42,277 nt of DNA from a virus, in IMG/VR virus record IMGVR_UViG_3300021425_000066, positions 1 to 42,277 of that record; one strand, given 5' to 3'. The notes under the pieces are model-generated. The model had not been told where the DNA came from. It made no database searches and was given only the letters and a program-made list of their open reading frames with translations. The translations under genes were made by a program, and so were the position numbers. Positions 30,888 to 32,682 of the stretch are shown here, piece after piece; position 1 is the stretch's first letter; every line of letters starts with the position of its first letter.

Positions 30888-31508
30888 ATGAAAACATTCC
30901 AGTCATATCTAAAAGAGTCCTTTACGAATTATATCGATAAAGGATTAAATACTGATCAGCGAACTCCTGAATTAGCAAAAGACATATTAGATATTCTACA
31001 ATTCTCATATAAAGATATTGGCGGAATAAAGGGATCAGGATTTAATTCTGCTGAAGATATGATTGCAAACGTTCCATTCTGGAAAATAGATCGACATCCA
31101 GATACAGGAAAAATTTCTTCTGCAGTTCTCTATAAAGATAAAGGTGGTAGAAAATTAGTCGCTATTGGTGGTGACGGATCTAAACGCAGTAAAGATAAAA
31201 TCATGGATGTATTTAGATCTGAATTGGGTCGATCATATAGCGAAAAAAGTAAAAGCGCGTTGGGTTTACTTATTAAAGTATTAGGTGATAACATCAAAAG
31301 CTTTTTAATTAAGCCAGAAAATGCAGGAAAGATTCTTAAAAAAGAAGTAACGCCAATAAGTAATATGGATAATACAGATTTGCCTCAAGACGCGCAAATG
31401 ACATTGTCTAAATATCCATGGATTAAAGACTATGGTTATTTACGTGACATTGGTGGTACACAAACATTTAAAGTTTTATTAGGAACGACTAATATTAATA
31501 TAAAATAG
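30888..31508 (+). CDS. Unknown protein with capsid-targeting-like N-terminus (206 aa)
   Basis: It starts MKTFQSYLKESF, close to the MKTYQEFIAEA capsid-targeting sequence of T4 internal proteins. The body holds DIGGIKGSGFNSAEDMIANVPFWKIDRHP, then AVLYKDKGGRKLVAIGGDGS, a pattern I recall from unknown proteins of marine T4-like phages. No catalytic motif is certain. Its TAG stop merges into the first copy of the tmRNA-end repeat. It might be injected with DNA if the N-terminus works as in T4. Confidence 0.7.
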   Translation: MKTFQSYLKESFTNYIDKGLNTDQRTPELAKDILDILQFSYKDIGGIKGSGFNSAEDMIANVPFWKIDRHPDTGKISSAVLYKDKGGRKLVAIGGDGSKRSKDKIMDVFRSELGRSYSEKSKSALGLLIKVLGDNIKSFLIKPENAGKILKKEVTPISNMDNTDLPQDAQMTLSKYPWIKDYGYLRDIGGTQTFKVLLGTTNINIK

Positions 31509-31539
31509 GCCCGTTCTGTTTCGAGGTGGAACCCATACC
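31508..31539. repeat. 32-bp direct repeat matching the tmRNA 3' end (copy A)
   Basis: It begins GGCCCGTTCTGTTTCGAGGT and matches 31801-31832 at 31 of 32 positions. Copy B is the 3' part of the tmRNA coding piece. Copy A lies between the stop of the 206-aa gene and the end of the 72-aa gene. Confidence 0.85.
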
Positions 31540-31546
31540 TTATGGA

Positions 31547-31765
31547 TTATTTGTTACTTACAAAAGAATTCATTTTGTTGCAAAGTTCAGCAATATCTTC
31601 AAATGATGGAAAGTTAGGCTGAGTAGGAAATACTGGACTTTCTCCTGCATCTTTCTCAGCATGATATTTTTCGTTCATTTGTTGTAACTTAGCATGATAC
31701 TCTTCTATAAGAAATGTTTTAGCTTCCATAAGCATGGAAAATCTAAGTTCATATGGATTTGACAT
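31547..31765 (-). CDS. Small phage protein of unknown function (72 aa)
   Basis: ATG 31765 with CAGGAG upstream. The sequence MSNPYELRFSMLMEAKTFLI followed by EEYHAKLQQMNEKYHAEKD is helical; the end has FPSFEDIAELCNKMNSFV. Proteins starting MSNP(Y/F)E(L/I)RF are familiar from T4-like phages, function unknown. It is bracketed by the two copies of the tmRNA-end repeat. Confidence 0.75.
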   Translation of the reverse strand: MSNPYELRFSMLMEAKTFLIEEYHAKLQQMNEKYHAEKDAGESPVFPTQPNFPSFEDIAELCNKMNSFVSNK

Positions 31766-31800
31766 AATAATCTCCTGTGTGTAATGTGTGTGTCAAATTG

Positions 31801-31832
31801 GGCCCGTTCTGTTTCGAGGTGGAGCCCATACC
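31801..31832. repeat. 32-bp direct repeat, tmRNA 3' end (copy B)
   Basis: On the minus strand this is the end of the tmRNA coding piece, including CCTCGAAACAG, which pairs with the acceptor piece. One mismatch (G for A) separates it from copy A. Confidence 0.85.
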
Positions 31833-32034
31833 CAAGCTACTTACGCAGCAATTGCCAGTTCGACTGGCGAGTTGTCGTTTGCACTTGTCAAACTTGGCTT
31901 TTAACGAAGCCACTCGGTTACCTCTTCGCATCTAATCACGTCCGTCGATCCTAATTCACCCCCATAGTTTTGGTGGAGGTGGAGGGAATCGCACCCTCGT
32001 CCGATCCATGCGTTGAATTGCCTCAACAGTAACA
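31801..32034 (-). ncRNA. ssrA: Two-piece (circularly permuted) tmRNA, tag ANDNSPVELAIAA
   Basis: Transcribed leftward, the acceptor piece comes first: CTGTTGAGG (32029-32021), a T-arm GAGGG-TGCGATT-CCCTC (31998-31982), CACCTCC (31981-31975), discriminator A and encoded CCA (31973-31971). After a 7-nt spacer comes the coding piece, starting GGGGGTG (31963-31957), which pairs over 7 bp with CACCTCC and includes the G3-U70 wobble that marks alanine charging. AGGATCGACGG follows, as in tmRNA. The tag frame runs from GCA (31882) to TAA (31841): ANDNSPVELAIAA. The end CCTCGAAACAG pairs with CTGTTGAGG with a 2-nt bulge, rejoining the pieces. It rescues stalled ribosomes. The ANDN start resembles alphaproteobacterial tags. 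Ends are approximate. Confidence 0.92.
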
Positions 32035-32039
32035 TACCA

Positions 32040-32047
32040 TATTTATC
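32040..32047 (-). promoter_or_regulatory. Late-like box GATAAATA ahead of tmRNA
   Basis: It differs from TATAAATA in the first base only. Predicted start near 32034, just before the pairing strand of the acceptor piece. A matching GATAAATA faces the other way at 32068-32075. Confidence 0.45.
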
Positions 32048-32067: not shown

Positions 32068-32075
32068 GATAAATA
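32068..32075 (+). promoter_or_regulatory. Late-like box GATAAATA ahead of the 98-aa gene
   Basis: Plus-strand counterpart of the box at 32040-32047, back to back with it; same first-base mismatch. It precedes the plus-strand membrane-protein pair. Confidence 0.4.
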
Positions 32076-32116: not shown

Positions 32117-32413
32117 TTGACTGAGATCTTTCAATTGATTGCCGACGTAGGCGCACCTATTGCCGGCAGTATTGTTATGGGTTTTTTCATTTTTATTGTC
32201 ATTAAACAAATACTACAAGGTATTATTGATCAAATTTCAACATTAACTATTTTTTGCGTTAGCTTAGAAAATAGAGCTAGAGTCATGTCAAATGAAATGA
32301 TTAAGATAGATCTATTAGTTAGTAACGCGTTAGAAATGCGTCCAGATATAAACCGAATTGCTCGAGCTGAGAACTTTGTTGAAGATAACAAAATTGACGC
32401 GCGGAGAGATTAA
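32117..32413 (+). CDS. Single-helix membrane protein, first of a pair (98 aa, TTG start)
   Basis: From TTG 32117 the product is MTEIFQLIADVGAPIAGSIV, then MGFFIFIVIKQILQG as a membrane helix, then a helical soluble tail. An ATG at 32113 lies at better spacing from AAGG but is in another frame and stops after three codons. The start is therefore uncertain. The arrangement (short N-terminus, one helix, soluble helical tail) repeats in the next gene, joined by TAATG. Confidence 0.6.
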   Translation: MTEIFQLIADVGAPIAGSIVMGFFIFIVIKQILQGIIDQISTLTIFCVSLENRARVMSNEMIKIDLLVSNALEMRPDINRIARAENFVEDNKIDARRD

Positions 32414-32682
32414 TGGTAGAATATGGATTAGTGCAGCTGATTAATAACTATGGATTTCCAGTCGTTGTTATGATTGGTTTGGCATATGTAATATATTATA
32501 TATGGAAATTCATAAATGAAAATATCCAGCCAAAAATAAAAGAAATGCATACCGCTCTTATTCGAGTCATCGATCAAACACGTATGTTAGATCAAGACAT
32601 GATACGACTTAAAGAAAAGATTAATGTAGCTTTAGACTATAAAGAGCAAGAAAAGAATTCTAATCAGAAGAAGAAACCTTAA
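32413..32682 (+). CDS. Single-helix membrane protein, second of a pair (89 aa)
   Basis: MVEYGLVQLINNYGFPVVVM opens the chain, then IGLAYVIYYIWKFINE forms the membrane segment and a charged coiled-coil-like tail follows (ALIRVIDQTRMLDQDMIRLKEK). The pair shares a common plan with the 98-aa gene. Its 3' end overlaps the opposing 59-aa gene by 23 bp. A holin-like or complex-forming role is possible, not shown. Confidence 0.7.
   Translation: MVEYGLVQLINNYGFPVVVMIGLAYVIYYIWKFINENIQPKIKEMHTALIRVIDQTRMLDQDMIRLKEKINVALDYKEQEKNSNQKKKP

Follow-up and report, generated by a model that had tools for sequence, protein, structure and literature searches.

A two-piece tmRNA in a T4-like phage fragment, with an apparently phage-only 3' end, a predicted late promoter and a second copy of its 3' pseudoknot

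The window, by which we mean the whole 42,277-base virus record that was analysed, is a fragment of a T4-like myophage, and its T4-like proteins include a gp6-type wedge protein, a hub/lysozyme, a tail tube protein, SSB (gp32), the helicase loader gp59, PhoH and gp33. By gp6, the closest isolates were C48C1 and Melnitz (35-36% identity), followed by HTVC008M (32%). The features that concern us are as follows.

32040..32047, minus strand: GATAAATA, a T4-type late-promoter-like box that differs from TATAAATA at one position and lies 70 nt ahead of the acceptor-end TCCACCA
31971..32034 (5' end approximate), minus strand: acceptor piece, comprising one inter-piece helix strand, the T-arm, the 3' acceptor strand and CCA (sequence, ARAGORN, Rfam)
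31964..31970, minus strand: 7-nt spacer AAACTAT, read from the sequence and presumably removed by processing
31799..31963 (3' end approximate), minus strand: coding piece, comprising the 5' acceptor strand, the tag frame and the 3' pseudoknot (sequence, ARAGORN, Rfam, covariation)
31841..31882, minus strand: tag frame ANDNSPVELAIAA-stop (ARAGORN; the RF04321 alignment ends at the stop codon)
31799..31835, minus strand: PK1, the 3' pseudoknot within the coding piece (pairs covary across 21 distinct sequences; phage-only 20-mer)
31547..31765, minus strand: ORF72, a 72-aa small protein with Shine-Dalgarno AGGAG (homologues directly 3' of tmRNA; dN/dS)
31506..31541, minus strand: PK2, the tmRNA 3' pseudoknot repeated downstream of ORF72 (direct repeat; relatives; covariation)
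25344-25081: gp33 of the window

Divergent from the tmRNA lie two neighbouring, related small genes (32117-32682, plus strand) that both belong to phrog_18771, one of them with an additional weak holin match, and this gene pair has a GATAAATA box of its own at 32068.

A circularly permuted (two-piece) tmRNA is encoded at 32034-31799 on the minus strand. A sequence-only reading of the window had placed it at 31801-32034, which was right within 2 nt, and had called it a phage-encoded tmRNA with alanine identity, an assignment on which covariance models, ARAGORN, the phage gene context and relatives now agree. The covariance-model search that it had proposed returned scores far above chance for both RF04321 (114.3 bits, E 9.9e-22; gathering cut-off 47) and RF01849 (85.2 bits, E 7.9e-22; gathering cut-off 50), and ARAGORN reported a tmRNA* with the tag ANDNSPVELAIAA. 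Apart from the pairing of the piece ends, the structural elements that had been named were found, with the T-arm and CCA ahead of the 5' acceptor strand and tag: a perfect 5-bp T-arm (GAGGG/CCCTC, 31998-31982), a 7-bp acceptor stem (GGGGGUG:CACCUCC) whose G3-U70 pair together with the encoded CCA (31973-31971) carries the alanine identity, the 7-nt spacer, and a coding piece beginning at 31963 with a tag frame that has GCA as resume codon and a protease-type end. Seeing that most host genes score 200-318 bits with RF01849, we consider the window tmRNA, at 85 bits, to be divergent.

The pairing proposed earlier between the two piece ends, CCTCGAAACAG with CTGTTGAGG, fared less well. It forms completely in the window (9 of 9 pairs) but in only one other of the 27 distinct sequences, most of the others having 6-7 of the 9 pairs, and its mean of 6.6 pairs compares with 5.5 in shuffled sequences; its CCTC half also overlaps one strand of the covarying 3' pseudoknot. 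The Rfam alignment places the inter-piece helix at GUUAC:GUAAC.

Evaluating that 3' pseudoknot across the family, we found that PK1 can form an H-type pseudoknot (S1 GGGU:ACCU, S2 GGGYUC:GGGCCY), which in the window reads S1 GGGU:ACCU and S2 UGGGCUC:GGGCCCA with a loop containing AACAGAA. Over 21 distinct sequences, 8 cells showed two-sided changes (shuffled mean 1.8), and 90% of cells were paired compared with at most 67% in slid controls. The 20-mer of this 3' end, CCACCTCGAAACAGAACGGG, occurred in 66 viral contigs (a count that is not deduplicated, IMG/VR contigs being partly redundant) with the tag sequence directly upstream in 66 of 66, and was absent from 84,980 bacterial and archaeal species genomes, a host sampling that is broad but shallow and in which SAR11-type hosts were not separately identified. 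A relaxed scan of host genomes for the phage loop hit 7 places, and ARAGORN found no tmRNA at any of them. A longer 3'-end pattern allowing 3 mismatches had zero matches in 398 Pseudomonadota genomes; in a 398-genome draw of that phylum, 140 carried RF01849 above cut-off. From these searches, PK1 looks to be a phage-only 3' end. Consistent with a separate lineage, 51 of 53 viral rows in a tree stood apart from 24 host rows, with the deepest split weakly supported (92/39) and the window on a long branch.

Upstream of the tmRNA lies the putative promoter. Among 99 viral permuted tmRNAs gathered without reference to the 3' end, 57 had TATAAATA upstream, 59-75 nt before TCCACCA, where shuffles predicted 2.6, compared with 1 of 24 host tmRNAs, there at 94 nt. 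The motif was also present in 25 of the 39 distinct contigs of the 66-contig phage-pseudoknot set (0.7 expected), all but one of these boxes lying 67-75 nt before TCCACCA; promoter counts, like those for covariation, are of distinct sequences. The GATAAATA box of the window sits at this family distance, such that a transcript start near 32034 would be expected, close to where the RF04321 match begins, and TATAAATA precedes many other window genes as well. Although the box is one mismatch off and the tmRNA of Melnitz was assigned an early promoter by its authors (PMC9004378), the sequence and position of the box suggest that the window tmRNA is under a predicted T4-type late promoter.

ORF72 is conserved: the window and about 60 of the 80 related loci have it directly 3' of the tmRNA. 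About 50 of the 80 relatives found with a close alignment carried an ARAGORN tmRNA upstream, whose end was in most cases no further than about 20 nt from the start of the ORF, and roughly ten more had a covariance-model hit. In a more distant group (A3), an ARAGORN tmRNA lay within 1.5 kb in only 25 of the 70 loci with enough upstream sequence. The wider block is itself syntenic (exonuclease-tmRNA-ORF72-(endolysin)-gp33-gp59), which weakens the linkage as independent evidence of function, so that linkage alone does not prove a function shared with the tmRNA. Judging from dN/dS of about 0.15-0.2 for pairs involving the window, ORF72 is under purifying selection. The family had no PHROG, Pfam or PDB match, and its predicted fold of two helices (pLDDT 87) gave no significant PDB match in a fold search, in which no RNA-binding fold was recognised. 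An identity with gp33 was rejected, as ORF72 matched neither phrog_254 nor the gp33 of Melnitz and the window has its gp33 elsewhere.

Beyond ORF72, at 31541-31506, lies PK2, which the sequence-only reading had not spotted and which forms with PK1 a direct repeat of 38 nt at 92% identity. A PK2-type copy after ORF72 recurred in relatives (L306-L326, L353, L351/L352), while other phages had an ordinary hairpin or nothing at that site. Aligned PK2 elements were 95.5% paired compared with at most 58% in slid controls, one S1 pair being seen as A-U, U-A, G-C and G-U, and many copies had a shortened AACAGAA loop with both stems intact, from which we conclude that PK2 in those genomes is not simply part of a tmRNA. 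As a known Rfam family PK2 found only two chance matches, and a consensus scan, which does not cover pseudoknots, did not list it as a simple intrinsic terminator.

We consider it most likely that PK2 arose by duplication or recombination of a tmRNA 3' end and was then kept as an RNA structure, an origin and a later retention that are compatible. A tentative alternative for the repeat, which we hold to be possible, is that PK2 is a pure recombination scar with no function: when a cassette made up of a tmRNA 3' end and a small ORF was swapped in, the 3' end of the earlier tmRNA would have been displaced and left behind. Several relatives speak for it: in L261/L248 the element after ORF72 opens with the tag end CTAGCGGCTTGATC and bears the pseudoknot of another lineage, a sign of recombination at the 3' ends of tmRNAs; in L251 (6005-5984, minus strand) two copies of the pseudoknot flank a different small ORF, of 57 aa, that is hydrophobic and has no Pfam match; and in L351 both copies are identical to each other, yet unlike those of others. 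PK1-PK2 identity was also higher within than between genomes (permutation 0.005; 0.07 without L351), a pattern that is only suggestive of concerted evolution. The compensatory stem changes of PK2, and its shortened loop with both stems kept, nevertheless point to a kept structure. We regard as unlikely the proposal that PK2 is a candidate binding site through which ORF72 or another tmRNA-binding factor would exert feedback control: ORF72 adjoins the tmRNA and lies between the copies in many relatives, and its purifying selection would fit, but it has no recognised RNA-binding fold, other phages lack the pseudoknot after it, and adjacency in a syntenic region proves little. Equally doubtful is the broader idea that tmRNA, ORF72 and PK2 make up one functional unit, in which ORF72 would be a tmRNA partner binding the 3' pseudoknot, with PK2 placed in the ORF72 mRNA for feedback or 3'-end control; if true, this unit would amount to a phage-specific trans-translation module.

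For the tmRNA itself, we are confident, short of certainty, in reading it as a functional phage two-piece tmRNA of alphaproteobacterial type, belonging to a phage-carried lineage and made late in infection. Its most likely role, which we infer because trans-translation is established for tmRNA, would be the late-infection rescue of stalled ribosomes using SmpB, AlaRS and proteases of the host; the window genes that were examined did not include an SmpB, so that host SmpB must recognise the phage tmRNA. In the sequence of events we propose, the T4-type late promoter would start a transcript close to the 5' end of the acceptor piece, one that probably runs on through ORF72 to PK2, host tRNA-processing enzymes would cut out the spacer, and the two pieces would be held together by the acceptor stem and the inter-piece helix. 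The CCA end would be charged by host AlaRS via G3-U70, and the charged tmRNA with host SmpB would enter stalled ribosomes, where translation would resume at GCA and ANDNSPVELAIAA would tag the product for host proteases. The phage would gain from the recycling, late in infection, of ribosomes stuck on broken mRNA. The earlier suggestion that a phage copy keeps rescue running is plausible, and a late promoter fits it, but its companion, a phage-chosen tag with a new purpose, gained no support from the proposed comparison with host tags: like these, most of the distinct viral tags terminate in LAA or IAA, which makes degradation the simpler reading.

A decoy or competitor, in which the phage RNA would bind SmpB or ribosomes and thereby dampen host trans-translation or redirect tagged proteins, strikes us as improbable; a molecule with only the tRNA-like domain, as in mycobacteriophage DS6A, can inhibit tmRNA (PMC4131195), but the tag frame is complete and conserved and has protease-type ends, an argument that the tag is used, and late expression is a better fit to maintenance than to early interference. 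That the locus is a recently captured or decaying host ssrA copy carried without function is very improbable, since its low RF01849 score relative to host genes, and the frequency of ssrA as an integration site with ssrA fragments in prophages (PMC9004378), stand against an intact acceptor stem, T-arm, CCA and tag frame, a covarying pseudoknot, a phage late box, viral sequences that cluster apart from hosts and a 3' end missing from the species genomes searched.

Whether a two-piece phage tmRNA had been described, which the sequence-only reading could not say, has a clear answer: phage Melnitz (Methylophilales; MZ577097) was published in 2022 as encoding one, in a survey where 53 of 133 distinct phage tmRNAs were two-piece and 50 of those 53 came from aquatic phages (PMC9004378). 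The class is therefore known, and what is new here is the apparently phage-only 3' end, the predicted phage late promoter and the small gene between two copies of the 3' end. These features, given that none of the cellular genomes searched has this 3' end, suggest that the phage two-piece tmRNA is an old phage gene under a late promoter of the phage and not a chance capture. With the promoter, the pseudoknot and the linked ORF72 in hand, it can be tested directly why phages carry tmRNA. A simple permuted-tmRNA pattern had matches in at least 120 IMG/VR stretches, and RF04321 scored above cut-off in 23 of 45 phage records whose relatedness was judged by SSB or exonuclease; no tmRNA was found in G010 and G011, the two closest records reaching the region, so presence varies even among relatives.

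In the phage tmRNAs L236 and L255, an ORF of about 145 aa fills the spacer between acceptor and coding pieces, with an HNH-type start (HHIIPKHMGG) and a Pfam HNH match (E 0.0033) that is below the Pfam cut-off, such that it looks like a homing endonuclease inside a segment that would be processed out anyway; the same spacer length was seen in L252, L262, L264, L269, L272 and L291. Record G042 has two RF04321 matches about 430 nt apart (L225 and L228, 51 and 23 bits), which may represent a tmRNA that is split or duplicated in part, and L041, L048 and L062 have unusually long predicted tags of 29-31 residues.

One-piece phage tmRNAs, those of the mycobacteriophage Bxz1 group and Bacillus phage G, have the standard, not permuted, gene form. 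What they share with the window is a complete tmRNA in a phage (PMC4131195). Alphaproteobacterial host ssrA (RF01849) has the permuted order, G3-U70, a tag starting AND(N) and a 3' pseudoknot of the same design, but differs in its loop consensus (ACCUGGCAACAGAA vs ACCUCGAAACAGAA in phages) and is without TATAAATA at the phage distance. In Sinorhizobium phage Phosso (PV764938.1), a permuted tmRNA that is unannotated in the record (L127, 2444-3089; RF04321 113 bits; tag read as ANDNVSTKVALAA) is identical to window PK2 over 32 of 32 nt, but has about 400 nt between its pieces, with no clear ORF there, and a single pseudoknot copy. Melnitz resembles the window in its permuted alpha-type tmRNA, its T4-like myophage genome and a similar site between PhoH and gp33/gp59/gp32, and differs in its tag (ANDNYVPVDYALAA vs ANDNSPVELAIAA), in the glutamine riboswitch and early promoter reported there (PMC9004378), and in that the next annotated gene on the strand is gp33, with no ORF72-like gene annotated between.
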